From contig NZ_CP047242.1 in assembly GCF_009856605.1 (NCBI RefSeq), forward strand, positions 4,160,001 through 4,224,000: a DNA stretch of 64,000 bases, written 5' to 3'. Source of the stretch: Trichormus variabilis 0441. GTDB taxonomy: Bacteria > Cyanobacteriota > Cyanobacteriia > Cyanobacteriales > Nostocaceae. Shown in pieces: positions 27,368-47,141 of this stretch. Every line of letters begins with the position of its first letter. The stretch's first letter is position 1. Under the pieces are notes generated by a model. It was not told the origin of the DNA. It saw nothing but the letters and a program-made list of their open reading frames with translations, and did no database searches. The position numbers were made by a program, and so were the translations under genes.

Positions 27368-27701
27368 AGCTTTAACCCATAAAACTTAGTTTTTCATGAT
27401 TGTATCAGGAGAAGTGGGTATCGGTGAGGTATGAAAGTAAGGGAATTCCAGATAAAAAAATATCCAAAATATAGGGTGTATCAGCGTAATAAAACTTAAA
27501 TATACTCAGAAATTATTCATACTGATGCACCTCACCAAACTATCAATTTCCGATAATTTATTTTCTAGTTTTCCCTAATCACACTTTTGCCATTGGCTAA
27601 ATAGGAAAAACGGTATTTATGCTGATGATCACTGTAAAAAATATAGACATCATATGTAATTAAACATACCCGTTAAACCGAAGTATCGGGGATTTAAATA
27701 C
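27368..27701. other. Spacer between the dehydrogenase and the TPS locus, holding MITE copy B
   Basis: The 334-bp divergent spacer holds MITE family 1 copy B (27441-27575). The remaining AT-rich sequence (27576-27701) must contain the promoter of the tpsB-tpsA array. I see no clear operator. Confidence 0.5.
27441..27575. mobile_element. MITE family 1, copy B
   Basis: The 135-bp element has terminal inverted repeats GGGAATTCCAGATAAA at the left, against a right end that reads inward as GGGAAAACTAGAAAATAAA. The core is palindromic (TAGGGTGTATCAG ... CTGATGCACCT). TAA flanks both ends and may be a target duplication. No open frame. It is homologous to 17730-17866 and partly to 44653-44854. Confidence 0.75.
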
Positions 27702-29468
27702 ATGAATGTACATTCAAAATTATTAGTTCAATATACAGAAAATTCCCTAATTAAACTCAAACTTATAAAATATGCTTTTGTGATAGCAGCAGTATTGTGG
27801 GACTATCATCAGGCGATCGCCCAAACTCCTGACCCTAGCTCCTTGCCAAAGGATCGTTTAGAAGATATTCCTACTAGGACTTTACCGTCGGAAGTATTAC
27901 AAAAACCATCAGATCAAGAGCAATTGCCTACTCCAACGGATTTACCAGAGCAGCAAGATCCAGTACAAAATGATACTAATGCCAAATTTCGAGTTGATCG
28001 GATTGAAGTTGTTGGTAGTAAGGTTTTCCCACCAGAAAAATTTGCCTCTATTACAGATCCTTTTGTAGGACGAGAAGTATCATTTGCAGAACTGTTGCAA
28101 GTTAGAGATGCTATCACCAAACTCTACACTGATAACGGCTATGTAACGACAGGGGCTTTAATTACACCGCAAACAGTAGAAGCTGGAGTTATTACTATTC
28201 AGATAGTAGAAGGCAGTTTGCAGGAAATTAAGATTGTTGGTAATCGGCGACTGCGTAGTCAATACATTCGCGATCGCATCCAACTAGGTGCTAGTAAACC
28301 TCTGAATGTACCGCGCTTAATAGAAAAGCTACAAATTCTGCGTCTCGATCCCCGTATTCAAAATTTGTCAGCCGAGTTACAAATGGGTGTAGCGCCTGGA
28401 ACTAACATCTTGCAAGTTGAGGTACAAGAAGCCGATACCTTCTCGCTGACAGCAACGTTAGATAATGGGCGATCGCCTAGTGTGGGTAGTTTTCGCCGGG
28501 GGGTAAATCTGCAAGAGGCAAATTTACTCGGTTTAGGTGACACTCTCAGCGTAGGATATAGCAATACAGACGGCAGTAATAGCATTAATTTAAATTACCA
28601 GTTGCCAATTAATACCCATAATGGTACTGTATCCTTCGGTCTTAATCAGGGGTGGAACCGTGTAATTGAAGACCCATTCAGCGTCCTAGATATTCAATCA
28701 AACACGACCTCTTATGAATTCGGTTATCGGCAGCCACTAATCCAAAAGCCAACCCAGGAATTAGCGGTGGGGCTATCTTTCTCACGCCAAGAAAGCCAAA
28801 CTGAGTTAGGGCTAGATAATATTGGTGGGTTTCCTTTATCACCTGGTGCGGATGCAGAAGGAAGAACGAAGATTTCTGCCTTGCGCTTTACTCAGGAGTA
28901 TACTCAACGCAGCAATGAGCAAGTTTTTGCAGCGCGATCGCAATTTAGCTTGGGCGTAAATTGGTTCGATGCTAATGTGAATGAGGATGAACCAGATAGT
29001 CGCTTTTTTGCTTGGCGGGGACAGGCGCAGTGGGTAAAGCAGTTAGCCCCAGACACCCTATTTTTAGCTAGAGGCGATATCCAACTAGCCTCAACTTCCT
29101 TAGTACCCTTGGAACAATTTGGTCTTGGTGGTCAGTTGAGTGTCCGAGGTTATCGCCAAGATACATTACTTACAGATAATGGTTTATTGTTGTCTGGGGA
29201 ATTGAGATTACCGATTTTCCGTGCTGCCAAATTGGGAGGCGTGCTACAACTAACACCTTTTATGGACGTAGGTACAGGCTGGAATACCCAAGGCAATAAC
29301 CCATCACCAAGTACCTTTGTGGGTACCGGGTTAGGGCTGCTATGGAAACAAGGGGATAGTTTCTCAGCTAGGCTAGACTGGGGTATTCCTTTAACATCCG
29401 TAGATGGTGAAAAGCGATCGCTCCAAGAAAATGGGCTGTACTTTTCAATACACTATACGCCATTTTAA
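27702..29468 (+). CDS. TpsB outer-membrane transporter (ShlB/FhaC/HecB family)
   Basis: The 588-residue protein has an N-terminal signal-like segment (about 20-41, ending AIAQ) and a Pro/Gln-rich linker (about 42-90). Two POTRA domains follow (about 95-172, starting FRVDRIEVVGSKVF; and about 173-250, VEGSLQEIKIVGNRRLRSQYI), then a 16-strand-type beta-barrel domain (255-588). The conserved barrel motif VRGYRQ is at 481-486, and the chain ends in an aromatic Phe, as outer-membrane barrels do. TpsB proteins bind the TPS domain of TpsA partners in the periplasm and pass them through the outer membrane. Five tpsA-type genes follow directly on the same strand, and this is the only transporter in the set. 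Confidence 0.95.
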   Translation: MNVHSKLLVQYTENSLIKLKLIKYAFVIAAVLWDYHQAIAQTPDPSSLPKDRLEDIPTRTLPSEVLQKPSDQEQLPTPTDLPEQQDPVQNDTNAKFRVDRIEVVGSKVFPPEKFASITDPFVGREVSFAELLQVRDAITKLYTDNGYVTTGALITPQTVEAGVITIQIVEGSLQEIKIVGNRRLRSQYIRDRIQLGASKPLNVPRLIEKLQILRLDPRIQNLSAELQMGVAPGTNILQVEVQEADTFSLTATLDNGRSPSVGSFRRGVNLQEANLLGLGDTLSVGYSNTDGSNSINLNYQLPINTHNGTVSFGLNQGWNRVIEDPFSVLDIQSNTTSYEFGYRQPLIQKPTQELAVGLSFSRQESQTELGLDNIGGFPLSPGADAEGRTKISALRFTQEYTQRSNEQVFAARSQFSLGVNWFDANVNEDEPDSRFFAWRGQAQWVKQLAPDTLFLARGDIQLASTSLVPLEQFGLGGQLSVRGYRQDTLLTDNGLLLSGELRLPIFRAAKLGGVLQLTPFMDVGTGWNTQGNNPSPSTFVGTGLGLLWKQGDSFSARLDWGIPLTSVDGEKRSLQENGLYFSIHYTPF

Positions 29469-29535
29469 TGGCGGCGCTGATACAACCAATGATTTAATAG
29501 CACACTATTTTGGGCATCCTCAATAGCAGGTATAA

Positions 29536-32004
29536 ATGAAAGGCTTGGTGATGAAAGCGACCTCTATTGGCTTGGGAATAGTGCTGTTAATGACAATGCT
29601 ACCGTGCTGTGATCCTGTCAGTGGGCAGGTAATTCCCGATGGTAGTGTGAATACCAGAGTCTCTCAAAGCGGCGATCTCTTCACCATCACTGACGGTAAT
29701 CGAGTAGGAGATAACTTATTTCATAGTTTCAGTCAATTCTCAGTTCCCAGCAACGGCACTGCTTTCTTCAATAACGCCTCAGATGTTCAAAATATTTTTA
29801 GTCGTGTCACAGGAGCCAGTGTTTCCCTAATTGACGGTTTAATACAAGCTAATGGTAACGCTAATCTATTTTTGCTCAATCCCAAGGGAATCATTTTCGG
29901 AGCAAATGCTCAGTTAAATATTGGCGGATCATTCATCAGTACAACTGCCAACAGTATCGAATTTGCCGATGGCATTGAGTTTAGTAGCATCAATTCTCAA
30001 CCTGCTCCATTGTTGAGTATCAATGTTCCCGTTGGTCTACAACTAGGAAACAATCCTGCACCAATTAACCTTCAAGGTACAGGACACACTTTAACCAATA
30101 CCAGTGGACTGACTCTAGCTCCCCTAATTCGGACTCCTCATCCCACAAAACTACAAGTACCATCGGGAAAAACCATAGCCCTAGTCGGCGGTGACATCAA
30201 CCTCAATGGGGCAACCTTAATCGCGGAAACGGGAGGAATAGAATTAGGTAGTGTGATTAGTCCGGGATTAGTCAACCTCATACCTAGCGCCCAGGGCTAC
30301 ACCTTGGGATATAGTAATATACAACACTTTGGCAATATTCAACTAGCCGAGCGATCGCTATTAGATATAAGCGGTGTAAATGCTGGTTCCGTGCAGATTC
30401 GAGGTGGGCAACTGCGATTCACCGACGGTTCTCTAATCCTGTCACAAAATTTCGGCGCTCGCCCTGGTGGTGAAATTCGCCTCCAGACTACAGAATCCAT
30501 TGAATTAATAGGCAGAACATCTGATGTTGGAATCCGGGGTGGGATACGTAGTGAAGCCTTAGGTATAGGAAACAGTAGCAATATCAATATTATTACCCCT
30601 ATTCTCACCGTCAGTCAGGGAGCAGGTGTGACTAACTCAACTCTAGGATCTGCTTCTAGTGGCAATATCAACATTGAAGCAACTGCAACTTACCTCTCCG
30701 GCTTTTCACCCACAAATCCTGTTGAAGTTACCACAATTAATACTTCCACACTAGGCAGTGGAAACGCGGGTGATCTTTTCTTCAATGGCAGTAGTCTATT
30801 AATATCAGATGGTGCTTCACTGTCTTCGACCACCTTTGGCAACGGTTCAAGTGGTAAAGTCACAATTCGCAACACTAATACCACCGTCATCGGAGAAAGT
30901 CCCTCTGAACTGTACAGCAACATTAGCTCAACGACATTTGCAACTGGAAATGCTCAAACCCTGACCCTAGATACTAAGAACTTACAAATCTTGGATGGGG
31001 GAGCAGTGGCCACCACAGCATTTTTTGTAGGTAGTGGCGGAGACTTAAGCATCAACGCCAGCGAATCCATCACCATTAGTGGTCAAGGTCGAACCATTAG
31101 CAGTAGCATTAACGCCTCCACTTTGCGACCCGATCCTTTTTTACGACAAAGATTTGGTCTGCCGGACATACTAACAGCAAATCCCGGCTCTGTCAGCATC
31201 ACCACACCTAAGCTAACATTAACCAACGGTGGAACCGTCGGTGTCACAAATCAAGGTAGCGGCAACGGTGGTAATATGAGCATCGCTACTAATACCATCC
31301 AATTAAAAAATCAAGGTTTTATTCAAGCACAGACAAAATTTGGCAACGGTGGGAATATTCAATTATCTGCAACAGACCTATTGCTATTGCGGCAAAATAG
31401 CCTAATTACCTCCACATCTGGTGGCTCAGGAAATGGAGGTAACATCAACATCAATGCACCCATCATCACGGGACTAGAAAACAGCGACATTATTGCTAAT
31501 GCCATTAGAGGTCAGGGAGGCAATATTCAAATTACCACTCAAGGTATGTTTGGACTAAAATTTCGTGACCAAATCACCCCGGAAAGTGACATTACAGCCA
31601 GTTCCCAATTTGGATTAAGTGGCACAGTCCAAGTTAACACTGTGGGAGTTGACCCAAACTCAGGTTTAGTCGAATTACCAGCCAATGTTACCGATCCATC
31701 CCAGAAAATAGCTACAGGTTGCTCTAATAATCAAGGTAGTAGTTTTATCGCCATAGGAAGGGGTGGAGTACCGCAAAACCCGACACAAGAAATCAGGAGC
31801 GATCGCTCCTGGTCAGACACCCGCGACATCTCTGCATACCGGGAAACACAGACAGTCCAAGCTCAAATCCCGCAACCTCCAGAAACGCTTGTCCAAGCAA
31901 CGTCCTGGCAACGTAACCCTCAAGGTAAAATTGAATTAGTGGTGGCTAAATCACCTCCGCAGATGCCACCAGCCCTAACCTGTGCTGCTGTAGTTGAAAA
32001 TTAA
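29536..32004 (+). CDS. TpsA exoprotein 1 (filamentous-haemagglutinin N-terminal domain)
   Basis: The 822-residue secreted protein has a signal peptide, a TPS domain (about 30-165: NLFHSFSQFSV, IFSRVTG, ANLFLLNPKGIIFG, LNIGGSFI, with the NPxG motif near 115), then a long Gly/Asn/Ser/Thr-rich repetitive region of beta-helix type. The conserved C-terminus includes GRGGVPQNPTQEIRSDRSWSD in outline. The two mature cysteines are about residues 728 (TGC) and 815 (LTC). The signal also has Cys-Cys, presumably removed. ATG 29551 (residue 6) is an alternative start that matches paralogue 3 (MKVTS) and has AAAGG upstream. It is the first of five tandem paralogues after tpsB. The function of the surface protein is unknown (adhesion is plausible). 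Confidence 0.92.
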   Translation: MKGLVMKATSIGLGIVLLMTMLPCCDPVSGQVIPDGSVNTRVSQSGDLFTITDGNRVGDNLFHSFSQFSVPSNGTAFFNNASDVQNIFSRVTGASVSLIDGLIQANGNANLFLLNPKGIIFGANAQLNIGGSFISTTANSIEFADGIEFSSINSQPAPLLSINVPVGLQLGNNPAPINLQGTGHTLTNTSGLTLAPLIRTPHPTKLQVPSGKTIALVGGDINLNGATLIAETGGIELGSVISPGLVNLIPSAQGYTLGYSNIQHFGNIQLAERSLLDISGVNAGSVQIRGGQLRFTDGSLILSQNFGARPGGEIRLQTTESIELIGRTSDVGIRGGIRSEALGIGNSSNINIITPILTVSQGAGVTNSTLGSASSGNINIEATATYLSGFSPTNPVEVTTINTSTLGSGNAGDLFFNGSSLLISDGASLSSTTFGNGSSGKVTIRNTNTTVIGESPSELYSNISSTTFATGNAQTLTLDTKNLQILDGGAVATTAFFVGSGGDLSINASESITISGQGRTISSSINASTLRPDPFLRQRFGLPDILTANPGSVSITTPKLTLTNGGTVGVTNQGSGNGGNMSIATNTIQLKNQGFIQAQTKFGNGGNIQLSATDLLLLRQNSLITSTSGGSGNGGNININAPIITGLENSDIIANAIRGQGGNIQITTQGMFGLKFRDQITPESDITASSQFGLSGTVQVNTVGVDPNSGLVELPANVTDPSQKIATGCSNNQGSSFIAIGRGGVPQNPTQEIRSDRSWSDTRDISAYRETQTVQAQIPQPPETLVQATSWQRNPQGKIELVVAKSPPQMPPALTCAAVVEN

Positions 32005-32070
32005 TTAATGTTACAAAACTTACCAAAATGGGAACAATAAATTGCAGGAGAAGAAACAATAACTGGATTC

Positions 32071-34521
32071 ATGAAATTAACTTTTGTCGGGTTTGGTGTG
32101 CTGAGTGTAATCTGGTTATCTGCTGTTTACAACTATAGTGTTCACGCACAAGTAACTCCCGATAATACTCTCAATACTTCTGTTACTTCGACTACTTCCA
32201 TGAGTGGAAGCAATAGTTACACTATCAACAATGGCACTCGTGTTGGGAATAATTTATTTCATAGTTTCAGCCAATTCTCTATACTCAGTGGCGGTTCTGC
32301 TTCATTTGACAATGCCACTGATATCCAAAATATTTTTAGTCGGGTGACTGGTGGTAATATTTCCAACATTGATGGTGACATCAGTGCCAAAGGTAGCGCC
32401 AACTTATTCTTACTCAACCCCGCAGGGGTTATTTTTGGGCAAAATGCCAGCTTAAATATTGGTGGTTCCTTTATAACCACAACTGCTAATAGTATAAAGT
32501 TTGCCGATGGGACAGAATTTAGTGCTTTGCAAGGTGCGGATCAACCTTTGCTGACAATGAGCGCACCAGTGGGCTTGCAAATGGGCAGTAATTCTGCTTC
32601 TATCAAAACTCAAGGAAGAGGATATGCAAATAGCGGTTCTTTTATCGTTCCCACACCCAACTCGACAGAACTACAGGTGAACCCAGGGAAAACCTTAGCA
32701 TTGGTGGGTGGTAATTTACAAATAGACGGGTTTATATTGAATGCTCCAGAAGGGCGGGTAGAACTGGGTAGTACAAACGGAACTGGGCAAGTTAGTTTAA
32801 TCCCAAATGCACAAGGTTATACTCTGGGTCATGAGGATGAACAAATTTTTGGTGATATTCAATTAGCCAAAAAGTCACTTATAAACGTAAGTGGTGTAAA
32901 TTCAGGTTCGGTTCGTCTACAAGCAAGAAATATCCTTTTAACAGACGGTTCATTGATACTTGCACAAAATTATGGCTATCTTCCTGGTGGAGAAATTAGC
33001 CTTCAAGCATCAACAGCAATTGATTTAATTGGCAGAAGTAGTGATGGAAATGTGTTGAGTGGAGTTCGTAGCGAAACTTATGGAATTGGAGCAGGTGGAA
33101 ATATTGGTATTTTTACTCGAAAACTTACTCTCCAAGAAGGAAGTGGTTTAAATAATATAACTTTGGGAACTGCTCCTAGTGGCAATATTGAAATTAATGC
33201 GAAAACAATTGAAATATCAGGTTTTTCGCAAGTAAACCCGAATGGAGTTACTAGCATTGGTACTTTGAGTTTTGCTTCTGGTAGTGCTGGTGATGTATTC
33301 GCTAATAGTGATAATTTACTAATATCCGGTGGAGCTTCCCTTTCTTCGGTTACGTTTGGTAGTGGAAGTAGTGGTAAAGTTTCAATTCGCAATCAAAACA
33401 CCACAGTTATTGGAAACAGCCCTTCAGGATTTGATAGTGCGATTACTTTAGCTACATTCGCGTTCGGAGATAACAAAGATTTGATACTGGATACTGGCAA
33501 ATTACAAATTTTAGATGGGGGAAGAATTGGTTCATCTACACTGTTTGCTGGTAACGGGGGAAATGTAAGTATCAATGCAAGTGAAGCAATCACAATTAGT
33601 GGACGTAACGATAATAACAACAGTGCAATTAATTCTTCCGCAACGCGTCTTAATGCACAGTTGCGTCAATCATTTGGCTTTCCAGATATGCTGACGGCAA
33701 ACGCTGGTAGTCTTAGTATTACGACACCAAATCTGATACTGACGGATGGTGCTACTGTGACTGTAACGAGTGAAGGTACTGGTAATGCCGGCAACCTTAA
33801 CGTTATTGCAGATATTATCCAATTAAAAAATCAGGCGTTGATTCAAGCACAGACCGAATCTGGTAATGGTGGAGATATAGACTTAAAGGTGGGAAGTTTG
33901 CTGTTAATGCGCGATCGCAGTAAGATTACAACCACAGCAGGCAGTACGGGTAATGGCGGCAATATCAACATTAATTCACCCACCATTGTTGGCTTAGAAA
34001 ATAGCGACATCACAGCTAATGCTGTTCGCGGTAAAGGTGGCAATATTAACATCACTACTCAGGGAATTATCGGTTTAGAGTACCGTTCGCAACTAACACC
34101 AGAAAATGATATTACGGCCAGTTCAGAGTTTGGGGTGAATGGTACAGTGCAAGTCGATAACGTCGGTGTAGATCCGAATTCGGGTTTAGTGGCATTACCA
34201 ACCAATTTTACCGATTCATCCCAAAAAATTGCTAGTGGATGTGCAGATAACAGTGGTAGTAGTTTCGTCGCTACAGGACGGGGTGGTGTACCGCAGAATC
34301 CCAATCAGGAATTAAGGAGCGATCGCACCTGGTCAGATATCCGTGATATGTCTGAATACCGCAATACTGGCGCAGTGACAGCACAAATTCCCAAATTTCT
34401 GGTTCTTGTCCAAGCCACTGGTTGGCGACATAATGCTCAAGGAAAAATCGAGTTAGTTGCGGATAAATCTTCTGCTCAGGTGAAACCAGCATTAACCTGT
34501 GCGCCAGTGGCTCAAAGCTAA
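32071..34521 (+). CDS. TpsA exoprotein 2
   Basis: The 816-residue paralogue has a signal of the MKLTFVGFGVLSV class ending VHAQ, unlike the upstream copy's MKATS class, and a TPS domain (NLFHSFSQFSI, ANLFLLNPAGVIFG). The central region resembles copies 1 and 3 (GYTLGHEDEQIFGDIQLAKKSL, DGSLILAQNYG), not copies 4 and 5. The C-terminal block (NVGVDPNSGLVALP, SGCADNSGSSFVATGRGGVP, and a final LTCAPV) keeps the two-cysteine pattern. The spacer upstream (GTTACAAAACTTACC, then GGGAACAATAAAT) is related to those before copies 4 and 5, so the duplication unit includes the intergenic DNA. Presumed TpsB substrate. Confidence 0.92.
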   Translation: MKLTFVGFGVLSVIWLSAVYNYSVHAQVTPDNTLNTSVTSTTSMSGSNSYTINNGTRVGNNLFHSFSQFSILSGGSASFDNATDIQNIFSRVTGGNISNIDGDISAKGSANLFLLNPAGVIFGQNASLNIGGSFITTTANSIKFADGTEFSALQGADQPLLTMSAPVGLQMGSNSASIKTQGRGYANSGSFIVPTPNSTELQVNPGKTLALVGGNLQIDGFILNAPEGRVELGSTNGTGQVSLIPNAQGYTLGHEDEQIFGDIQLAKKSLINVSGVNSGSVRLQARNILLTDGSLILAQNYGYLPGGEISLQASTAIDLIGRSSDGNVLSGVRSETYGIGAGGNIGIFTRKLTLQEGSGLNNITLGTAPSGNIEINAKTIEISGFSQVNPNGVTSIGTLSFASGSAGDVFANSDNLLISGGASLSSVTFGSGSSGKVSIRNQNTTVIGNSPSGFDSAITLATFAFGDNKDLILDTGKLQILDGGRIGSSTLFAGNGGNVSINASEAITISGRNDNNNSAINSSATRLNAQLRQSFGFPDMLTANAGSLSITTPNLILTDGATVTVTSEGTGNAGNLNVIADIIQLKNQALIQAQTESGNGGDIDLKVGSLLLMRDRSKITTTAGSTGNGGNININSPTIVGLENSDITANAVRGKGGNINITTQGIIGLEYRSQLTPENDITASSEFGVNGTVQVDNVGVDPNSGLVALPTNFTDSSQKIASGCADNSGSSFVATGRGGVPQNPNQELRSDRTWSDIRDMSEYRNTGAVTAQIPKFLVLVQATGWRHNAQGKIELVADKSSAQVKPALTCAPVAQS

Positions 34522-34587
34522 TTGCAGTGTCTAGTCAAAACAACATTGTGGGAAACCTAAGCATAAAGTTGAAATGGAGAAGGAGTG

Positions 34588-37080
34588 ATGAAAGTAACTT
34601 CTGTGTGCTTGGGTCTAACTTGTGTGTTCTTAGCTGCTGGAATGTCTTTACCAGCCACTGCTCAAGTGACTTCTGATGATACCACAAACACTACTGTCAA
34701 CCCAAGCGGTAATAATTTTCAGATTATTAACGGTACTGCCAGAGGAAATAATTTATTTCACAGCTTTAGTAATTTCTCTGTACCCAAAGACTCTTCAGCA
34801 ACATTTGACTTAACTAATACACCAAATATTACAAATATATTTAGCCGAGTTACTGGTGGTAATGTTTCTAATATTGATGGAATGATTGAAACTGTTAAGA
34901 GTAATAATCCAGTAAGTTTGTTTTTAATGAATCCGGCAGGGATTGTGTTTGCTCCAAATGCCTCCTTGAATATTGGCGGGTCGTTTGTAGGAACAACGGC
35001 AAATAGTATTAAGTTTGCTGATGGGACAGAGTTTAGTGCCAATAATTCCAGTGTGACACCATTACTGACGATGAGTGTTCCAATTGGCTTGCAAATGGGA
35101 AGTAATCCAAACCCCATCACAGTTCAAGGTACAGGTTATGCCCTAACATCTGTCAGTACCGTTGCCCCCATCACTCAAAGTCCCAGTACCTCAGAACTAA
35201 GGGTAAAGCCAGTAAAGACCTTGGCACTGGTAGGGGGCGACTTAAATCTTACTGGGGCAACCTTGAACGCGCCCGAAGGACGTGTCGAATTGGGAAGTTT
35301 AAGCGGAGTGGGAATGGTCAGTTTGAACCCCATTTCTCAGGGTTATCAGTTAAGTTACGAGGGCGGGCAAAGCTTTGCAGATATCCAACTTACGCAAAAA
35401 TCCTTGCTGACTGTAGGAGCATTATTAAGTGCAGGGGCATTAAATGCTGGTTCGGTACAATTACAGGGAAGGCACATTCAAATCAGTGATGGTTCAATTA
35501 TATTTTCCAAAAATCTGGGAAATGTCGCTGGAGGTGAAATTATTTTACAAGCCTCGGACAGTATCGATATTATAGGTACAACAGCCAACGCCCAAATTCG
35601 CAGTGGCATCCGCTCTGAAGGTTTGAATACTGGCACAGGTTCACCCATCCATATCATCACTCCCCACTTAACCCTCTCACAAGGAGCAGGAGTTAACAAC
35701 AATGCTTTTGGATTTGCTGCCAGTGGTGGGATTCAGATTGATGCACAGACAGTTGAGTTATCTGGTTTTTCTCCCATCAATCCTACAGGAGTAACGTCCC
35801 TGACCATCTCTTCCCGAACTCCCAAGTCAGCAGGCAATCTCTCCATTAACACTAATAGTCTACTGGTTTCTCAGGGAGCAGCCATCTCCTCAGTAGCATT
35901 TGGGACTGGTTCTACAGGGCAAGTCACCATTCGCAGTCAGAATACTACTGTCACGGGAGACAATCCGGCAGGACTCTATAGCAATATTAGTGCAATCACA
36001 TATGGCACAGGCGATGCCCAAACCTTGACGTTAGATACGAAACGATTACAACTACTCGATGGGGGAGTAGTCGCAACCACATCCTTTTTGATTGGTAAAG
36101 CTGGAAATTTAAACATTAACGCGACTGAATCGATTCTGATTGACGGGCGCAGCCAGGCTAACAATAGCAGTATTAACTCAGCCGTCCTGATCCCGCCAGC
36201 ATTAATCAAACAGTTATTCAGGTTGCCTAATATTTTGTCGGCGAATGGTGGAACTGTGAATGTAACCACCCCTACCTTGACGTTAAGCAATGGCGGCGCA
36301 GTTAGTGTGACTAATCAGGGTGCAGGCGATGGGGGCCATATAAACATTACTGCCAATACGGTATTTTTAGATCGTCAAGGTAGCGTTCAAGCTCAAACGT
36401 TGTCGGGCGAGGGCGGTAATATTACCTCACAAGTCAGTGAGCTGCTGTTACTACGTCACAATAGCCTGATTAGTGCGACATCCGGGAATACAGGTAATGG
36501 TGGCAATATTAGCATTAATGCTCCTGTTATCGCTGGGCTAGAAAACAGTGACATTATTGCTAATGCAGTGAAAGGAAGAGGTGGCAATATTGATATCAGG
36601 ACTCAAGGTATTATTGGTCTAGCATTCCGTAATACTCTCACCCCAAGAGTTGAGCAGACCAACGACATCACAGCCAGTTCCGAATTTAACATTAATGGCA
36701 CAGTAAAAATTAATAACGTTGGTGTTGATCCCAATTCGGGTTTAGTTGCACTACCCGCAAATATTATCGATCCATCCCAGCAAATAGCTAGTGGTTGTTC
36801 TGCCGATACTGGCAGTAGTTTCGTCGCCACAGGGCGGGGTGGAATACCGCAAAATCCTAGTCAAGAAATGAGGAGCGATCGCACTTGGTCTGATACCCGT
36901 GATATATCTGCATTCCAAAACAGACAGCAGACACAAGCACAAGCACCCACACAGCCACGAATCCCCGTCCAAGCAAATTCCTGGCATCGTAACAACCAAG
37001 GCAAAATTGAATTAATTGCGGATCAATCCCTAACACAGGGACAAACAGCATTAACCTGCATGGCTATACCCCAGAATTAA
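34588..37080 (+). CDS. TpsA exoprotein 3
   Basis: The 830-residue paralogue has a signal of the MKVTSVCLGLT class ending PATAQ. The start was set at ATG 34588; a GTG one codon upstream (34585) is equally readable, and GGAGAAGGAG lies just before. TPS domain: NLFHSFSNFSV, TNIFSRVTGGNVSNIDG, VSLFLMNPAGIVFAPNASL (a variant NPAG with FAPNA). The central region is like copies 1 and 2. At about residues 735 and 820 it has SGC and LTC, the only cysteines of the mature chain. The C-terminal linker carries a Gln/Ala-rich run (QQTQAQAPTQP) before RIPVQANSWHRN. A serine-rich beta-helix is inferred, not shown. Confidence 0.92.
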   Translation: MKVTSVCLGLTCVFLAAGMSLPATAQVTSDDTTNTTVNPSGNNFQIINGTARGNNLFHSFSNFSVPKDSSATFDLTNTPNITNIFSRVTGGNVSNIDGMIETVKSNNPVSLFLMNPAGIVFAPNASLNIGGSFVGTTANSIKFADGTEFSANNSSVTPLLTMSVPIGLQMGSNPNPITVQGTGYALTSVSTVAPITQSPSTSELRVKPVKTLALVGGDLNLTGATLNAPEGRVELGSLSGVGMVSLNPISQGYQLSYEGGQSFADIQLTQKSLLTVGALLSAGALNAGSVQLQGRHIQISDGSIIFSKNLGNVAGGEIILQASDSIDIIGTTANAQIRSGIRSEGLNTGTGSPIHIITPHLTLSQGAGVNNNAFGFAASGGIQIDAQTVELSGFSPINPTGVTSLTISSRTPKSAGNLSINTNSLLVSQGAAISSVAFGTGSTGQVTIRSQNTTVTGDNPAGLYSNISAITYGTGDAQTLTLDTKRLQLLDGGVVATTSFLIGKAGNLNINATESILIDGRSQANNSSINSAVLIPPALIKQLFRLPNILSANGGTVNVTTPTLTLSNGGAVSVTNQGAGDGGHINITANTVFLDRQGSVQAQTLSGEGGNITSQVSELLLLRHNSLISATSGNTGNGGNISINAPVIAGLENSDIIANAVKGRGGNIDIRTQGIIGLAFRNTLTPRVEQTNDITASSEFNINGTVKINNVGVDPNSGLVALPANIIDPSQQIASGCSADTGSSFVATGRGGIPQNPSQEMRSDRTWSDTRDISAFQNRQQTQAQAPTQPRIPVQANSWHRNNQGKIELIADQSLTQGQTALTCMAIPQN

Positions 37081-37158
37081 TTGCGCCAACACAACCGTTA
37101 CAAAAGACACCACCAAGGGAACAATAAATACGGAATATAACATAAATAATATCGTTCC

Positions 37159-39621
37159 ATGAAATTAACCTTGGTTGGGTTTGGCTTTCTGGGTATATTC
37201 TGCCTATCTGCTGTTGATAATAATTGCGTTTACGCACAAGTAATTCCCGATCACACCCTCAAAACTTCTGTAAGTGGCAGTAATCCTTACATCATCACTG
37301 ATGGTACTCGTATCGGCAATAATTTATTTCATAGCTTCAGCCAATTCTCTATTCTTAAAGGTGATTCTGCATCATTTGACAATGCTATAGATATTCAAAA
37401 TATTTTTAGTCGTGTGACTGGCGGTAATATTTCCAACATTGATGGTTCCATCAGTGCTAATGGTAACGCCAACTTATTCTTAATCAACCCGGCTGGGATT
37501 ATATTTGGGCAAAATGCCAGTTTAAATATTGGTGGATCATTTGTCGGGACAACAGCTGAGACTATCACATTTGCTGATGGGAAGAGATTTAGTAGCACAG
37601 ACACTGATACATCACCCTTGTTAACCATGAATGTACCCACTGGGCTGCAATTTGGTAGTAATTCAGGAGGGATAACAGTTCAGGGTACAGGACATAATGC
37701 CCAATTAAGTGACTCACTACAAGTTTCTGGACTAAATCTCAGTACCAGAGGATTACAACTACAACCAGGAAAAACACTAGGGTTATTAGGCAGCAATATT
37801 GCCTTGGATGGTGGACTGCTCTCTGCACCAGGAGGACTAATAGAATTGGGTGGTATCACCAGTGGCAACGTCATTCTCAATTCTACTCCGCAAGGATTTG
37901 CCTTCCAGTATTCCCAAGTTCCGAGTTTTGGCAATCTTCAAATCACTCAACGAGCTTTAGCATCAACACGGGATTTCAATGGGGAAAGTGGAGGAGCCAT
38001 CCATATCCAGGGAAAACAAGTCAGTATCCGCGATGGTTCGTTGATATTAGTACAAAATCGCAGCCAAAAGACAGCTGGTGATATTGCTGTTGATGCTTCA
38101 GAGTCTTTAGAACTTATTGGCAAGTCTCCTGATTTTCAAAGTTCCAGCAGTTTAGTGAATGAAAGCACTTCCTCTGGTAAGGCTGGGAATATTATCATTA
38201 ACACTCCACGATTGAACATTGATCAGGGTGGGTATATTTATAACCGGACGTTCAGCACAGCACCAGGTGGCAATATTATCGTCAATACCGATGAAACGCG
38301 GGTTAATGGTTTTGCTTATGGTGATCCTTCCGCTTTTCGAGCAGTTAGTCAAATATTAGCTGCTTCCTATGCAGGCGGGAAAGGCGGTAATATTTCTGTC
38401 TCTACTCAAAAGCTATCTGTTTTAGCTGGGGGAAATATAGCAGCCAGACCCTATGCTGGAGGTAATGGGGGTGATGTAACAGTAAAAGCAGATACGATAG
38501 AAGTAGATAATACAGGCTCTCCGACTGGTTTTTATTTTAGCTTAATTTCGACTGCCACCTTTGGGTCAGGTAACGCGGGAAATTTGGCACTCGATACTCG
38601 TAAATTATCCGTGCAAGCTGGCGGCAGAGTGTCTGCTTCTAGCATAATTTTAGGTAATGCTGGTGTACTCACTATTAATGCTTCGGAATCGATTGATGTA
38701 AGTGGGGTTAAGGATGCAGACAATCCCAGCTATATCGGCACTGCTGTGCGTCCTTTTGGTGCATTTGCCCGAACTTCTCGTGCTAATTCAGGTAACACCA
38801 CCATAAACACTCCAGTTTTGAATGTTACTGATAGGGCGACAGTTTTTGTGGAAAATTCTGGTTTGGGTACGGCTGGTACGCTGCAAATTAATGCCAACAC
38901 CCTTAAACTTGACAATCATGCAAGTATTCTAGCATCTACAAAAGCTGGAGAGGGAGGCAACATCAATCTTCAACTACGGGATGTATTATTGATGCGTCAT
39001 GGTAGCTTTATCAATGCCGAAGCAGGTAGTAATGGCAATGGTGGCAATATAAGTATTAACTCTCCTAATGTTGTTGGTCTAGAAAATAGTGACATCATTG
39101 CCAATGCCGTACAAGGAAAGGGTGGCAATATTCAAATCACAACTCAGGGAATTATTGGTTTGGAGTACCGTAATCTTCTCAATCCTAGAGAAATTTTGAG
39201 TAATGACATTACCGCTAGTTCCCAATTCAGTATTAGTGGTACAGTCCAAATTAATAATGTTGGTGTTGATCCCAATTCTGGTTTAATAGATTTACCGACC
39301 AATCTCTCAGACCCATCACAACAAGTTGCCACGGGTTGTTCTAATACTAATAGTAGTAGTTTTGTGGCTACGGGACGGGGTGGAATACCACAAAATCCTA
39401 CACAACAAATGAGGAGCGATCGCACTTGGTCTGATATCCGTGATATCTCTGCATTCCACACCAAAGAACTAGCACAAGCCCAAATACCACAATCCCCAGA
39501 AAAACTTGTCCAAGCTACTTCCTGGCATCGTAACGCCCAAGGCAAAATCGAGCTGGTTGCCGCTAAATCCTCTTCGCAGATGTCACCAACCTTAACCTGT
39601 GCTGCTGCACCTCAAAATTAA
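37159..39621 (+). CDS. TpsA exoprotein 4 (divergent centre)
   Basis: The 820-residue paralogue has a MKLTLVGFGFLGI-class signal ending VYAQ and a normal TPS domain. From about residue 180 it differs from copies 1-3: it lacks the VSLIPNAQGYTLGY-type block and instead has NVILNSTPQGFAFQYS, then FNGESGGAIHIQGKQV and SPDFQSSSSLVNE. The last 200 residues (GLENSDIIANAVQGKGGNIQITTQGIIGLEY onward) return to near identity with the others. This mosaic suggests central-domain exchange. Two mature cysteines: TGCSNTNS and LTCAAAP. A 78-bp spacer separates it from copy 3. Presumed TpsB substrate. Confidence 0.92.
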   Translation: MKLTLVGFGFLGIFCLSAVDNNCVYAQVIPDHTLKTSVSGSNPYIITDGTRIGNNLFHSFSQFSILKGDSASFDNAIDIQNIFSRVTGGNISNIDGSISANGNANLFLINPAGIIFGQNASLNIGGSFVGTTAETITFADGKRFSSTDTDTSPLLTMNVPTGLQFGSNSGGITVQGTGHNAQLSDSLQVSGLNLSTRGLQLQPGKTLGLLGSNIALDGGLLSAPGGLIELGGITSGNVILNSTPQGFAFQYSQVPSFGNLQITQRALASTRDFNGESGGAIHIQGKQVSIRDGSLILVQNRSQKTAGDIAVDASESLELIGKSPDFQSSSSLVNESTSSGKAGNIIINTPRLNIDQGGYIYNRTFSTAPGGNIIVNTDETRVNGFAYGDPSAFRAVSQILAASYAGGKGGNISVSTQKLSVLAGGNIAARPYAGGNGGDVTVKADTIEVDNTGSPTGFYFSLISTATFGSGNAGNLALDTRKLSVQAGGRVSASSIILGNAGVLTINASESIDVSGVKDADNPSYIGTAVRPFGAFARTSRANSGNTTINTPVLNVTDRATVFVENSGLGTAGTLQINANTLKLDNHASILASTKAGEGGNINLQLRDVLLMRHGSFINAEAGSNGNGGNISINSPNVVGLENSDIIANAVQGKGGNIQITTQGIIGLEYRNLLNPREILSNDITASSQFSISGTVQINNVGVDPNSGLIDLPTNLSDPSQQVATGCSNTNSSSFVATGRGGIPQNPTQQMRSDRTWSDIRDISAFHTKELAQAQIPQSPEKLVQATSWHRNAQGKIELVAAKSSSQMSPTLTCAAAPQN

Positions 39622-39685
39622 TGACTGTTACGAAATTTACTGAATTGGGAAATATAGATACGTAATAAAAACAAGAAATGGATTA

Positions 39686-42160
39686 ATGAAATTAACTTTT
39701 GTTGGACTTGGTGTGCTGAGTGTAATCTGCTTATCTGCTGTTGACAACAATAGTGTTCACGCCCAAGTAATTCAAGATAATACCTTCAATACTTCTGTTA
39801 CTCCCACTACTTCCATGAACGGAAGTAATGCTTACACCATCAACAACGGCACTCGTGTCGATAATAATTTATTTCATAGCTTTAGCCAATTCTCTATTCC
39901 CACGGGCGATTCTGCATTTTTCGGCAATGATCTTAGTATAGAAAATATTTTTAGCCGGGTGACTGGTGGTAATATTTCCAAGATTGATGGTTCTATCAAT
40001 GCCAATGGTAAAGCCAATTTATTCTTACTCAACCCTGCGGGCATTATTTTTGGAAAAAATGCCAGCTTAAATATTGGTGGTTCATTTGTCGCAACTACAG
40101 CTAATAGTATTAAGTTTGAGGATGGGACAGAATTTAGTGCTGTAAATCCTGCCGCTAAAGCGTTATTAACAATGAGTGTACCTGTGGGTTTGCAAATGGG
40201 AAGTAACCCTGGTCAAATTACCGTCCAGAACACAGGGCATCAGTTGGCATTTCCGATTCACCCTTTGGTTTCTTCTCCAAATCGCAGCAACAATCCTGTG
40301 GGATTAAATGTTAATAATGGTAATTTGGCATTAATCGGGGGAAAAATCACCTTAGATGGAGGAGTTTTAAATGCACCATCAGGACATATTGAACTTGGTA
40401 GTGCTAGTAACGGAATAGTTAATTTAAACACTGCCTCTCAGAGTTGGAATTTTGACTATAGCAATATTCAGCAATTTGGCGATATTCAGTTGTCCCGTCA
40501 ATCACTAGCAGATGCTAGCGGTACTCCTGCGGGTTCTATTCAATTCGTAGGTCAAAATATTAGTTTAAATGATGCTTCTGCTGCCCTATTGGTTAATGAA
40601 GGAAATGGCAATTCAGGGAATATTAACATTGATGCGAGTGGATCTTTAACACTACGAGGAACTGGCACTATAGGATTTCCTCAAAGTTTATTGCGTGCTG
40701 ATAATTTCAGCGATGGTAGTGGAGGTAATATCATTGCTTCGGCTTCCCAAGTATTCCTTCAAGATGGCGGATCTCTTCATGGCATTAACTTTGCTGAAGG
40801 TACAGGAAGTAATATTTTTGTAGAAACTCAGGATTTAATTCAAATAACGGGAATATCACCAGTTAGCGGATTTGCCAGTTCATTGAATACTATCACCAGA
40901 GGTTCTGGAAAAAGTGGCGATATTCAAGTAGCTACCAACAAATTGCAAGTTTTAGATGGTGCTGTTATTGGTAATTCGCCTTGGTCAAATGGTGCAGGAG
41001 GTAACATCACCATTAACGCCTCTGATTTTATCGAAGTGGCCGGAGAAAACACAAAAAACTTGGCTGACAGTGTCATCGTAGTAGGAACATTCGACGAAGG
41101 AAATTCAGGTTTATTAACTATTAATACTGCCCAATTGAGAGTACGAGATGGTGGAGGTATAGTTGTCTCTACCGTCAATCAAGGAAATGCTGGTGATTTA
41201 GTGATTAATGCTTCAGACACAGTTGAGGTTAGTGGAGTGGGTAGTATTTCTGGTCTTCCTAGCCGCATTGGCGTGAGGGCAGAATTACTTGCACCACCAA
41301 TTCGACAATTATTTGGATTACCGGATGTGATTACAGGTAATATAGGTAAGCTTACCCTCAACGCCCAACGTTTACAAGTCACAAATCAGGCAATTGTAGG
41401 GGTTGATCATCAAGGCATCGGAGATGCTGGACAACTGGAAGTTAATGCAGATTCCATCCGACTAGATAATGGTGGTAGCATTACAGCCGCTACAGTTCAA
41501 GGTGAAGGCGGTAATATTTTGATTAATTCCAATGACCTGCTATTGCGTCATGGTAGTTCAATTATGACTAATGCAGACGGTATTGGTAACGGGGGGAATA
41601 TGACCATTAACTCTGCTGTGATTCTTGCTTTGGAAAACAGTGATATTGTCGCCAATGCCGTTCAAGGTAACGGAGGTAACATTAACATTACTTCTCAAAG
41701 TATTTTTGGGTTGAAATACCGTAACGAACTCACTACAGAAAGTGACATCACTGCTAGTTCGCAATTTGGTTTAAACGGAACAGTCAATATTTATCACTTT
41801 GGTGTTGATCCCAAAACTGCTTTAGTAGAATTGCCAAAAAATACTATAGATCCGTCAAAACAAATTGCTAGTGGTTGTAATGCTAATACTGGTAGTAGTT
41901 TTGTCGCCACAGGACGGGGTGGAATACCACAAAATCCCACACAGGAAATTAAGAGCGATCGCACTTGGTCTGATATTCGTGACATATCTGCATTCCACAC
42001 CAAACAACAAGCACAAGCACCAAAAAATCCCGTAACACTTGTCCAAGCTACCTCTTGGCGACGTAACGCCAACGGCAAAATTGAGCTTTTTGCCGCTAAA
42101 TCTCCTACAGGTGTGCAAATGTCATTAACCTGTGCATCTCTTGCCAAAAGTCAACCTTAG
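39686..42160 (+). CDS. TpsA exoprotein 5 (second divergent centre)
   Basis: The 824-residue paralogue has a signal of the MKLTFVGLGVLSV class ending VHAQ and is nearly identical to copy 2 at the N-terminus. It has a TPS domain (NLFHSFSQFSI, ANLFLLNPAGIIFGKNASL) and then a third type of central region (IVNLNTASQSWNFDYS, NDASAALLVNEGNGNSGN) unlike copies 1-4. Near residues 590-640 and after it rejoins the shared pattern (GLPSRIGVRAELLAPPIRQLFGLPD; GLKYRNELTTESDITASSQFG). It has SGCNANTG and LTCASLAKSQP. It is the last gene of the array; dapL converges on it from downstream. Confidence 0.92.
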   Translation: MKLTFVGLGVLSVICLSAVDNNSVHAQVIQDNTFNTSVTPTTSMNGSNAYTINNGTRVDNNLFHSFSQFSIPTGDSAFFGNDLSIENIFSRVTGGNISKIDGSINANGKANLFLLNPAGIIFGKNASLNIGGSFVATTANSIKFEDGTEFSAVNPAAKALLTMSVPVGLQMGSNPGQITVQNTGHQLAFPIHPLVSSPNRSNNPVGLNVNNGNLALIGGKITLDGGVLNAPSGHIELGSASNGIVNLNTASQSWNFDYSNIQQFGDIQLSRQSLADASGTPAGSIQFVGQNISLNDASAALLVNEGNGNSGNINIDASGSLTLRGTGTIGFPQSLLRADNFSDGSGGNIIASASQVFLQDGGSLHGINFAEGTGSNIFVETQDLIQITGISPVSGFASSLNTITRGSGKSGDIQVATNKLQVLDGAVIGNSPWSNGAGGNITINASDFIEVAGENTKNLADSVIVVGTFDEGNSGLLTINTAQLRVRDGGGIVVSTVNQGNAGDLVINASDTVEVSGVGSISGLPSRIGVRAELLAPPIRQLFGLPDVITGNIGKLTLNAQRLQVTNQAIVGVDHQGIGDAGQLEVNADSIRLDNGGSITAATVQGEGGNILINSNDLLLRHGSSIMTNADGIGNGGNMTINSAVILALENSDIVANAVQGNGGNINITSQSIFGLKYRNELTTESDITASSQFGLNGTVNIYHFGVDPKTALVELPKNTIDPSKQIASGCNANTGSSFVATGRGGIPQNPTQEIKSDRTWSDIRDISAFHTKQQAQAPKNPVTLVQATSWRRNANGKIELFAAKSPTGVQMSLTCASLAKSQP

Positions 42161-44652: not shown

Positions 44653-44854
44653 TAGGGTGCGCTACTTGCGATAAAATCAAACTATATTCAGAAATTCTTC
44701 ATACTGACGCACCTCCCATACCAATTCAATTAATGATTGCAACATATCGTTGGGTGAAGACGCGATGAATCGCGTCTCTACAAATGGTTTATTTGTCGCA
44801 TTCTTTTGTCAAATTGGTATTACATTTTGGATATTTTTTTATCGGAAAACCCCT
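44653..44854. mobile_element. MITE family 1, copy C, interrupted by another element
   Basis: The core (TAGGGTGCGC from 44653; TTCAGAAATTCTTCATACTG; GACGCACCTCCC) matches copies A and B. It is interrupted at 44718-44820 by a second element and resumes at 44822 with ATTTTGGATATTTTTTTATC, which is the inverted form of the copy-B left arm. The tip (GGAAAACCCCTA) reaches 44854, i.e. into the stop codon of pbpC. Confidence 0.7.
44718..44820. mobile_element. MITE family 3, nested in family 1 copy C
   Basis: The 103-bp segment has perfect 9-bp terminal inverted repeats ATACCAATT (44718-44726) and AATTGGTAT (44812-44820), and a central palindrome GACGCGA-TGAA-TCGCGTC (44759-44776). Its left neighbour is the GACGCACCTCCC end of the family 1 core and its right neighbour is that family's arm, so it entered later. 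Confidence 0.72.
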
Positions 44855-47141
44855 AATAATTACCAATTGAAAAACCCCGACGTGTCGGTTTAATACTGGC
44901 CAATTTCACCTGAAATTTTACCTTATCACTCATTTCACCGCTTCTCGCCTCCAAAGTCCAGTTACCAGGACGCAGCGACCAAAATAAAGAATTAGCTGAC
45001 TGGGTATTCAACTTTTCACCGTTGAGCCACCACTCTATAGGTGTAGACTTACTTCCTACTAACTTAAATTCTAATTTTTGTTGTGCTTCTTCACCTGGAT
45101 ACAGTAAGAATAAATCGCCGTCATGAGGAGATAAAATTCTCAGGCTGCTGGTGGTAAACTGCGATCGCTGTTGCTTGGCTAACCACTCGTTATATTCTGG
45201 TGGTAAAGTAAACTGAGTGTCCCTTTCGTAGCTAATTTTATCTTCGGGATAGAAATATTCTTGCACTACGGAAGTACAGTCTGGTGTGGGACGTAACCCG
45301 GAAACTGCACAGATTGGTAGTTGCAATAAACCTGTTGGGGTGGGAAAACTAGCTGGTTCTTGATGTTCGTGCAGATGTAACATAATCCGATTCCACAAGG
45401 GGGCTGCACCCGTGACACCGGAAACTTGGCGCATGGGTTCACCGTTAAAGTTACCTACCCAGGTAGCGACGGTGTAATCAGTGGTAAAGCCGACTGTCCA
45501 AGTGTCACGGTAGTTGGAAGATGTACCAGTTTTCACAGCCACAGGGAAGGGTAAGTTTAATACTGAATCTACACCGAAAGCTGTGGCACGAGCATGGCTG
45601 TCGCTGAGGATGTTAGTGATTAATTGCCAGATTGTGGGGTTTGGGGGTTGGGTATGGGGGACTGGGGACTGGGAAAGGGTGGTGATTAAGGGGGTGGGTT
45701 GTCCTTGTCTTGCTATCGTTAGGTAGGCTTGGGCTAGTTCCCACAAGCTGACTTCACCACTACCAAGGGTTAAACCTAAACCATAGTATTCTGGGGTTTG
45801 CTTCAGGTGGACAAATCCCAGTTGATGCAGCCGTTCTAGGAAAGTTGGCACACCCACTTTTTCCAAGACGCGCACGGCTGGTACATTGAGGGAATTGGCT
45901 AAGGCGATGCGTACCCGCACTGGCCCAAGGAAGTTTTCCGTATAATCCGTTGGGCTGTAGAGTTGTGCGCCGGGGATGGCGTAATGGGTAGGGACATCTG
46001 CCAAAATAGTATTTGGGCGAATTAACCGCTTTTCTAAGGCTAATTCATAGACAAAGGGTTTCAGAGTAGAACCTGGTTGACGTAGGGCTTGAACTCCGTC
46101 GTTGCGTCCCAGTTGGGCTTGATTAAAGTAATCCGGTGAACCGACGTAAGCTAAAACTTCCCCAGTGTGGTTATCTATTACTAGTGCGGCTGCGTCATGA
46201 ACGTTATTGGCAAAAAGAGTAGAAATTACCTGCTGTACTTGTGCTTCGACGAATTGCTGCAAAGGACGATTGATAGTTGTGTGGATAACTGATTGATTTG
46301 TGTCAGCAGGACTGGGAGGAATTTGATTAACTAACCAAAATAAAAAATGCGGTGCGGCGATAATTCCTCGCTGGTTGGACTGAAACACAACTTTTTCTGA
46401 GGATGTGCGATATGCTATGTCCTTGCTCACATACCCTTCCTGTACCATCCGATTGAGGACGTATTTTTGTCGTTGCTTCAGACGTTCCCAATGTTCGTAA
46501 GGGTTAAAGTAGGTGGGATTATTGGGAATGGCGGCTAACAAACTAGCCTGGGCAAGATTTAACTCACTGGCTGGTATGGAAAAATAAGTGCGGGCTGCTG
46601 CTTCTACACCATATATATTCCCTCCCATTGGTAGGCGATTAATATATGCAGAGAGGATTTCATCCTTACTCATCCCGGCTGCTAACCGCCACGCTAGCCA
46701 AATTTCCTGCATTTTCCCTGACAAGTGGCGGGGGACTGGTTCTAACATCCGCGCTAACTGCATGGTAATTGTGGAAGCGCCGGAAACAATTTTTTTGGCG
46801 TGGATGGCTTCTTTGATGGCGCGGACAATTGCTTGCAAATCCAAAGCCCCATGATGGTAAAAGCTACCATCTTCGGCGGCTAAAATTGCTTGGATAAACT
46901 GGGGGGAAATCTGATTTAGGGGTACTACTGATGTATGCTCTTGGTCACGGGTGAGTATTGTTCCTAATGGTAGCCCATTGCGATCGCTAAATTGCATTGC
47001 TAGTTGATTTTGGGCAATATCTACGGCACGAATCGGCGCAAAATAAGGTGATAAGCGGATTAATAGGCATATTAACAGCACAGCTAGGATCACCTTACTA
47101 CTGTGCCGCATTCTGGTAAGCGATAGAGATATGAATTGCAT
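44853..47141 (-). CDS. pbpC: Penicillin-binding protein 1C
   Basis: The 762-residue bifunctional peptidoglycan synthase has one N-terminal membrane anchor (about 16-36). The GT51 transglycosylase domain (about 60-240) has catalytic Glu in ILAAEDGSFYHHGALD, with TITMQLARML. The transpeptidase domain (about 300-570) has SxxK in GSTLKP (Ser about 358), SxN in ANSLNVP and KTG in VKTGTS. A C-terminal BiPBP-type Ig-like domain (about 675-750) is the mark of PBP1C. The linker SPVPHTQPPNP (about 493-503) is encoded by an in-frame GGGGACT repeat. The gene is divergent from the alpha-2-macroglobulin-like gene, the same partnership as E. coli pbpC-yfhM. Confidence 0.95.
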   Translation of the reverse strand: MQFISLSLTRMRHSSKVILAVLLICLLIRLSPYFAPIRAVDIAQNQLAMQFSDRNGLPLGTILTRDQEHTSVVPLNQISPQFIQAILAAEDGSFYHHGALDLQAIVRAIKEAIHAKKIVSGASTITMQLARMLEPVPRHLSGKMQEIWLAWRLAAGMSKDEILSAYINRLPMGGNIYGVEAAARTYFSIPASELNLAQASLLAAIPNNPTYFNPYEHWERLKQRQKYVLNRMVQEGYVSKDIAYRTSSEKVVFQSNQRGIIAAPHFLFWLVNQIPPSPADTNQSVIHTTINRPLQQFVEAQVQQVISTLFANNVHDAAALVIDNHTGEVLAYVGSPDYFNQAQLGRNDGVQALRQPGSTLKPFVYELALEKRLIRPNTILADVPTHYAIPGAQLYSPTDYTENFLGPVRVRIALANSLNVPAVRVLEKVGVPTFLERLHQLGFVHLKQTPEYYGLGLTLGSGEVSLWELAQAYLTIARQGQPTPLITTLSQSPVPHTQPPNPTIWQLITNILSDSHARATAFGVDSVLNLPFPVAVKTGTSSNYRDTWTVGFTTDYTVATWVGNFNGEPMRQVSGVTGAAPLWNRIMLHLHEHQEPASFPTPTGLLQLPICAVSGLRPTPDCTSVVQEYFYPEDKISYERDTQFTLPPEYNEWLAKQQRSQFTTSSLRILSPHDGDLFLLYPGEEAQQKLEFKLVGSKSTPIEWWLNGEKLNTQSANSLFWSLRPGNWTLEARSGEMSDKVKFQVKLASIKPTRRGFSIGNY
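45657..45670. repeat. GGGGACT heptamers inside pbpC
   Basis: Two exact GGGGACT units (45657-45663, 45664-45670), with degenerate neighbours on both sides (TTTGGGGGTTGGGTATG before), lie in frame in the pbpC coding region. They are the intergenic STRR type also seen near 56982-56996. Confidence 0.7.

Follow-up and report, generated by a model that had tools for sequence, protein, structure and literature searches.

The 64,000-nucleotide stretch of the Trichormus variabilis 0441 genome analysed here (contig NZ_CP047242.1, positions 4,160,001 to 4,224,000, referred to as the window; the source genome comprises 7.10 Mb in 5 contigs) carries a two-partner secretion (TPS) locus in which one gene for a TpsB transporter is followed by five genes for TpsA passenger proteins. 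When such arrays were compared across related genomes, the likeness between copies of one array was confined to the first ~84 residues and the C-terminal domain and was absent in the bodies. On balance, we lean towards the explanation that one exporter displays a shuffled set of passengers whose ends are homogenised locally. This turnover of passengers between relatives is a more informative feature than the pair of C-terminal cysteines that the first-pass annotation of this DNA had emphasised.

One transporter gene is followed by five passenger genes

The array consists of the following genes.

27702..29468, + strand: TpsB of the ShlB/FhaC/HecB family, 588 aa (Pfam ShlB 9.5e-33, POTRA_2 2.3e-23, Omp85 1.8e-21)
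29536..32004, + strand: TpsA copy 1, 822 aa (TPS domain 1.8e-67; Cys 729, 816)
32071..34521, + strand: TpsA copy 2, 816 aa (TPS domain 1.7e-67; Cys 724, 810)
34585..37080, + strand: TpsA copy 3, 831 aa, GTG start as listed (TPS domain 2.4e-69; Cys 738, 825)
37159..39621, + strand: TpsA copy 4, 820 aa (TPS domain 3.2e-66; Cys 727, 814)
39686..42160, + strand: TpsA copy 5, 824 aa (TPS domain 1.8e-67; Cys 731, 816)

Domain scans and a check of the open reading frames bore out the coordinates, order, strand and lengths that had been assigned to these genes by the first-pass annotation. The TpsB has ShlB-type POTRA domains and a C-terminal Omp85/ShlB barrel, and the TpsAs have an N-terminal TPS secretion domain with NPxG after a Sec signal, the signal being read by eye. 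All five TpsA frames are intact, with the invariant TPS residues present; the TPS domain is the sole Pfam domain above the cut-off in each, and adhes_NPXG was matched in all five by the domain scan. In a profile search of solved structures, the TpsA profile was matched only over about its first 130 positions (HxuA, EtpA and the adhesin 2odl), and the middle is a variable glycine-rich repeat body, which is most likely a beta-helix. The intergenic gaps from TpsB through copy 5 measure, in order, 67, 66, 63, 78 and 64 nt. The array is flanked by two genes on the opposite strand, one for a zinc-type alcohol dehydrogenase upstream and one for an aminotransferase downstream.

Copies of one array are alike at their ends and not in their bodies

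For the segment comparison, we used 50 intact array-type TpsAs in 16 groups, 47 of which belonged to multi-copy groups. The nearest relative of these 47 lay in the same array for 3 in the TPS part, 1 in the mid part, none in the distal body and 15 in the C-terminal domain; group sizes alone predict 3.7. Averaged over arrays, the excess of within-array identity was +6.1 in residues 1-84, +4.4 in residues 701-728 and +4.8 in residues 730-815 (0 of 300 label shuffles each), and the excess of the end segments again gave 0 of 300 shuffles after genome G010 was dropped. No clear excess was found elsewhere, that is, in the TPS part at residues 85-290 (+0.8, 81 of 300 shuffles) or in the body at residues 291-560 (-0.2) and 561-700 (+1.2, 54 of 300). 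Sliding windows gave a z of 8.2 at residues 745-804 and values of -0.3 to -2.2 between residues 160 and 714. At fourfold sites, identity in the C-terminal loop was 0.61 within arrays versus 0.55 between them, and in the middle 0.31 versus 0.34. The higher value in the loop fits recombination there, and codon constraint is also a possible cause. Recent tandem duplication as the origin of the row was rejected because the bodies of one array are not nearest relatives.

The comparison with Nostoc parmelioides (loci L051, L035 and L082) points the same way. At the same genomic place, the DNA of flank and TpsB is 92-93% identical up to the TpsB stop at 29469, and identity resumes at 94% from 42231; between these positions, only patchy matches of 72-82% were found. 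The N. parmelioides TpsB protein is 94% identical to that of the window, and the upstream flank of N. parmelioides holds an extra stretch of a few kb. At the protein level, identity between the five copies of the source genome and the four of N. parmelioides is 47-64% for the TPS part and 24-62% for the middle. Copy 2 and N. parmelioides copy 4 are 87% identical in the distal body only and 70% identical over residues 291-700, and this pair is a mosaic. Bodies close to orthologous were found in other genomes: copy 4 and copy 10 of G010 are 89% identical in the body, 67% in residues 1-84 and 53% in residues 763-822. Body identities of 70-95% were reached by 35 of 1135 inter-group pairs, and these 35 are only 40-75% identical in residues 763-822. 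A truncated TpsA remnant with the TPS part only (L082:110-427, + strand) closes the N. parmelioides array on the right and adjoins the aminotransferase gene.

Several observations weigh against a shuffled passenger set with homogenised ends. Label shuffling ignores the relatedness of the genomes, and the loop excess is uneven, at +10 to +22 in three arrays (N. 106C, G010 and N. carneum) and -1.2 to +4.7 in the other ten, the window's own array standing at +2.8. Copy 2 and N. parmelioides copy 4 are still 70% alike over the body, and only 40% identical in residues 763-822 despite TpsBs that are 94% identical; such a difference behind a near-identical TpsB is better explained by gene conversion in a linker under loose constraint than by co-adaptation to the TpsB. 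The N. parmelioides array contains an assembly gap, where contigs C104 and C118 end, and a copy may be missing; the whole assembly was therefore searched with the five TpsA genes, which gave 24 matches; a single one, 29 bases long, exceeded 82%. A fifth array-type C-terminus, 76% identical to part of copy 5, lies on the small N. parmelioides contig C58. None of the 90 same-array pairs reaches 70% in the body (maximum 68%), a result that is not significant; since about 3 such pairs would be expected by chance, their absence alone proves nothing. Lastly, the same cysteine pair occurs in solitary TpsAs without an adjoining TpsB.

The C-terminal cysteine pair is a feature of the whole family

The first-pass annotation had counted two cysteines per mature chain, and the count holds in all five copies, always as GC and LTC, 85-87 residues apart. 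Cysteines occur at residues 24, 25, 729 and 816 in copy 1, 724 and 810 in copy 2, 8, 13, 738 and 825 in copy 3, 15, 23, 727 and 814 in copy 4, and 15, 731 and 816 in copy 5; the additional ones precede the signal-peptide cleavage site (A-Q or G-Q, residues 26-31, read by eye), which leaves two per mature chain. The TpsB has no cysteine at all, and a disulfide between TpsA and TpsB is thereby ruled out. The C-terminal domain that holds the two cysteines was delimited as follows.

31576..32004, + strand: C-terminal domain of copy 1, the two-cysteine segment (GRGG[IV]PQNP, SDR.WSD, W, GKIEL, LTC)
34096-34521, 36652-37080, 39193-39621 and 41726-42160, + strand: its equivalents in copies 2-5

An alignment of these segments gave a mean column identity of 76%, and residues 700-759 are the most conserved part of TpsA. 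In a phylum sample of 117 genomes, 31 have the domain, and every one of these belongs to the class of the source genome.

What did not stand was the treatment of the pair as a feature of the array, as it belongs to the whole TpsA family. Among 8000 scored candidates, 7058 matched copy 1, and of the best 120 that were listed (the closest mostly from Nostoc), 116 have exactly two cysteines past residue 40 and 119 have a pair 60-130 residues apart and at most 45 residues from the end. The latter also holds for 119 of the 120 listed homologues of a second TpsA of the source genome, and the homologue without the pair in either list ends ahead of the second cysteine. Thus a cysteine pair near the C-terminus, as in hooks of the HMW1/CdrA type, is present in 5 of 5 copies and 238 of 240 listed homologues, and 193 of these 238 carry G-x-G-G-[LIVM]-P in the loop. 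In an alignment of 82 sequences, C729 is invariant and C816 nearly so, far above chance. Among 78 complete TpsAs (motif-pattern finds in loci L020-L081 plus the window), 75 carry the pair at a spacing of 74-113; two of the other three are fusions of TPS and CHAT domains, and the third has its last two cysteines 46 apart. The source genome has the pair in 12 of its 14 TpsAs, with only the first cysteine seen in L021 and L024. An array-specific device was accordingly rejected. As the pair is also found in solitary TpsAs, it need not be tuned to this TpsB, and a general role, for instance in retention or folding, seems more likely than recognition of this transporter; an anchor or folding lock is plausible. 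One solitary subgroup (L020:5736-8183, L071:1209-3884 and L075:2706-5252) carries two additional cysteines in the body, separated by six residues.

Two other identities were considered for these genes. A toxin locus of the contact-dependent inhibition type was rejected, because C-terminal residues 700-759 are the most conserved and the next genes, after gaps of 63-78 nt, are further TpsAs; gene inspection and domain scans revealed no toxin or immunity gene in the array. Cyanobacterial proteins annotated as 'S-layer family protein' or 'filamentous hemagglutinin N-terminal domain-containing protein' belong to the same family as copy 1. An assignment as S-layer protein is unsupported, with no SLH or S-layer domain in the five TpsAs in Pfam and NCBIfam scans up to E 1.

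Rows of passengers beside orthologous transporters

TpsA genes lie downstream in all 11 TpsB orthologue loci of named genomes (75-94% identity), counting the two TpsAs of L058, which fell outside the motif pattern and were recognised via length, N-terminus and alignment. Every one of the 20 genomes searched, the source included, has 2 to 34 TPS-domain genes and 3 to 8 POTRA_2 hits, part of which are probably BamA-like. (Loci L051 and L060 are probably the same records as genomes G003 and G009, given their shared gene layout.) The row beside a TpsB numbers 10 TpsAs in G010, 1 in G004, 3 in G001 (with the TpsB on the opposite strand) and at least 4 plus the truncated remnant in N. parmelioides; in G009 it would number 7, provided that contigs C56 and C86 adjoin, with a 1.4-kb gap ahead of the last TpsA. 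The earlier remark that classic loci have one TpsA therefore holds as a general rule, but in this family it is nothing unusual for 1 to 10 TpsAs to stand in a row beside a TpsB.

The source genome has 14 TPS-domain genes. Of its 5 POTRA_2 genes, we judged one to be BamA-like from its neighbours. No second TpsB lies near the array, and the other four POTRA_2 hits are on contig C1, ~1.5 Mb or more distant. Two TpsB-like genes (L028:5379-7193, - strand, and L029:6110-7864, + strand) stand alone, with no TPS-domain gene in the 13-kb stretch examined around each, and several TpsAs have no neighbouring TpsB; in view of the lone transporters, the pairing of exporter and passenger is not readable from gene order. 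As to the proposal that one exporter serves the family, the anatomy of the locus and the 11 orthologue loci uphold it, and we consider it very likely that the five TpsAs are secreted by this TpsB. That it exports all five and only these is something we infer, given the 14 TPS-domain against 5 POTRA_2 genes and the lone TpsBs.

TPR-CHAT genes adjoin many TpsA loci

In several relatives, genes for TPR-CHAT (caspase-like) proteins, DUF928 proteins and CHASE2 sensor kinases adjoin the array or its TpsB. This neighbourhood was confirmed with Pfam in L052, L034 and L039, and elsewhere it was judged from CHAT hits, motifs or like N-termini. TPR-CHAT genes stand beside TpsA or TpsB genes at L020, L021, L026 and L027 in the source genome and at L034, L039, L040, L041, L052, L057, L058 and L061 in relatives. 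Across seven near-complete genomes, 31 of the 62 non-fused TpsA loci have a CHAT hit of ~100 bits or more at a distance of up to 12 kb; random placement averaged 3.5 such loci over 2000 trials and never exceeded 10, the loci of related genomes not being independent. No CHAT gene lies near the window's array, the nearest hits being more than 160 kb away. Both an H-x-A-T-H-G-like and an LSAC pattern, which we take to be the catalytic motifs of CHAT proteins, were present, by simple pattern search, in 11 of the 13 examined (L021 is without the first, L026 without the second). A hydrophobic stretch, seen by eye within the first 55 residues, makes export of the TPR-CHAT proteins likely. TPS and CHAT domains also occur within one protein.

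L066:3280-8055, - strand: TPS and CHAT domains in one protein, usual two-cysteine end absent
L067:2418-4682, - strand: TPS and CHAT domains in one protein, usual two-cysteine end absent
L063:3743-8665, + strand: N-terminal family-2 glycosyltransferase domain with TPS and CHAT domains
L065:4907-9784, + strand: N-terminal family-2 glycosyltransferase domain with TPS and CHAT domains

The glycosyltransferase combination in L063 and L065 is unusual and could stem either from a misassigned start or from a genuine fusion, and L062 and L064 have the same TPS-CHAT combination by shared open frames. A literature search returned no paper whose title links the CHAT domain with two-partner secretion, or with filamentous hemagglutinin in cyanobacteria.

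Other features of the window

Terminator-like sites on the + strand fall within genes at 32416 and 39954 and just past copy 5 at 42247, with none in the gaps between array genes, which is compatible with a single transcript for the array; neither promoter-like sites (36 versus 35.7 in shuffles) nor terminator-like sites (10 versus 11.9) exceeded the shuffles in number. A plasmid search with the TpsB gene gave 9 records, none covering 80% of it. Between the alcohol dehydrogenase gene and the TpsB gene lies a further element.

27441..27575, no strand assigned: dispersed MITE-like element of 135 bp, flanked by TAA direct repeats

It has strong hairpin potential (z -4.9), and no inverted repeat pair was reported in 27380-27720, though the strand folds well. 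N. parmelioides has an uninserted site at this place. In each of 13 genomes of the genus, a query with the flank found 7 to 38 matches, mostly to the 135-bp stretch among the matches listed. At 44853-53249, the window holds a divergent bifunctional penicillin-binding protein gene (BiPBP_C domain) and a gene for a bacterial alpha-2-macroglobulin of 1906 aa, a pairing that is usual.

Discussion

Each TpsA opens with a Sec-type signal and a TPS domain, continues in a variable body and ends in a conserved domain within which the two cysteines bracket ~86 residues. The POTRA domains would recognise the TPS domain and the TpsB barrel would export the chain, as the established TPS pathway is outlined in sections of PMC5422565. 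Adjoining copies would homogenise their ends by recombination (concerted evolution), and bodies would be gained, lost or swapped as units; that the array turns over by recombination we hold with good confidence. The locus would then behave as a repertoire of surface molecules behind one exporter. Simple tandem duplication and subsequent drift, without any functional repertoire, would account for co-oriented copies at similar spacing and for the broken copies in relatives (L057 and L061; truncated in L082), but it is very unlikely, given bodies no closer within the array than to copies of other genomes, five intact frames with invariant TPS residues, and near-orthologous bodies kept in other genomes. 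Export might also be shared, with part of the five going through other TpsBs of the genome and solitary TpsAs from other loci going through this one as well. We regard this as rather unlikely: the linkage between the TpsB clade and TpsAs is kept in 11 of 11 orthologue loci, although 14 TPS-domain genes face 4 TpsB-like genes in the source genome, two TpsBs there have no neighbouring TpsA and several TpsAs no neighbouring TpsB, and promiscuity of TpsBs is known (parts of PMC5422565).

For the C-terminal end, we think that an intramolecular disulfide probably joins the two cysteines in the periplasm. An end closed and folded in this way would be unable to pass the TpsB pore, and the protein would be held at the surface, like the CdrA hook or the HMW1/HxuA anchor; by analogy with these, a retention anchor is a serious possibility, to which we give slightly less than even weight. 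Less probable is an extracellular cap or folding lock, in which case the TpsA would be exported over its full length, then released or shed into the sheath, and the only task of the disulfide would be to stabilise the C-terminal end of the beta-helix or to help pull the chain out by folding. Such a role would suit a pair that is near-universal in the family with or without an adjoining TpsB, and a loop of ~86 residues with a conserved G-x-G-G-[LIVM]-P that exceeds the needs of a simple hook; the known two-cysteine TpsA ends (HMW1/HxuA, CdrA), however, are described as anchors in the portions of the literature available. Binding of a metal or cofactor by the cysteines is most improbable, as are intermolecular disulfides that would link passengers to one another in the sheath. 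The near-invariance of the pair is the only point in favour, no histidine or acidic cluster conserved beside both cysteines was seen by eye in the five copies, and two cysteines per chain at fixed spacing better match an intramolecular bond.

Parts of these proposals have precedents. Type Vb systems with one TpsB for several TpsAs, treated in part of a review citing Julio and Cotter 2005 and work on Neisseria, likewise have a TPS domain, a POTRA-type transporter and a TpsB that is not limited to a single TpsA; the difference is that here up to ten passengers stand in a row and their bodies turn over while the transporter is kept. The disulfide anchor of HMW1/HxuA and the cysteine hook of CdrA (excerpts of PMC11898600 and PMC7616799) also place cysteines near the extreme C-terminus of the TpsA, but here the two bracket 74-113 conserved residues, and the likeness is one of position. 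TpsA anchors, TpsB promiscuity and cassette exchange are covered in portions of PMC5422565. CdiA/BcpA and meningococcal TpsAs (passages of PMC5422565 and PMC3848433) are likewise made polymorphic by recombination; those exchange the 3' end, whereas here the ends are locally alike and the middle differs.

The family is well populated but little described in the literature searched. By title, no paper on such arrays was found in literature on two-partner secretion in cyanobacteria; subscription papers lay mostly outside the search, and a prior description is possible. The available part of PMC4195282, on TpsB and TpsA, does not mention arrays. According to a section of PMC10811720, a filamentous hemagglutinin N-terminal domain protein, of unspecified locus, is mutated in RD5, a phage-resistant substrain of Nostoc 7120, and an excerpt of PMC9307615 reports hemagglutinin gene variants in Nostoc after space exposure.

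In a more speculative joint reading, which we consider improbable as a whole, TpsB arrays of Nostocaceae would form a recombining display repertoire, possibly for evasion or recognition; bodies would swap between genomes via the conserved ends, the two-cysteine end would retain the passengers, and exported TPR-CHAT proteases would release them on a signal from neighbouring CHASE2 kinases, as a cyanobacterial counterpart of the LapG/CdrA release system. In this reading, phage pressure could be what drives the turnover of passengers.

The passenger turnover and the CHAT neighbourhood deserve a second look, the cysteine pair being ordinary for the family. Near-identical exporters with different cargo in two close species amount to a natural experiment, and the TPR-CHAT link, if confirmed, would tie a class of caspase-like proteases to the display of surface proteins. 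If the preferred explanation of one exporter and a shuffled passenger set is true, transporter and ends stay while passenger bodies turn over, and the cell surface would then be varied in another manner than by the exchange of 3' ends described for TPS proteins; the surface proteins of filamentous cyanobacteria bear on phages, biofilms and symbiosis.

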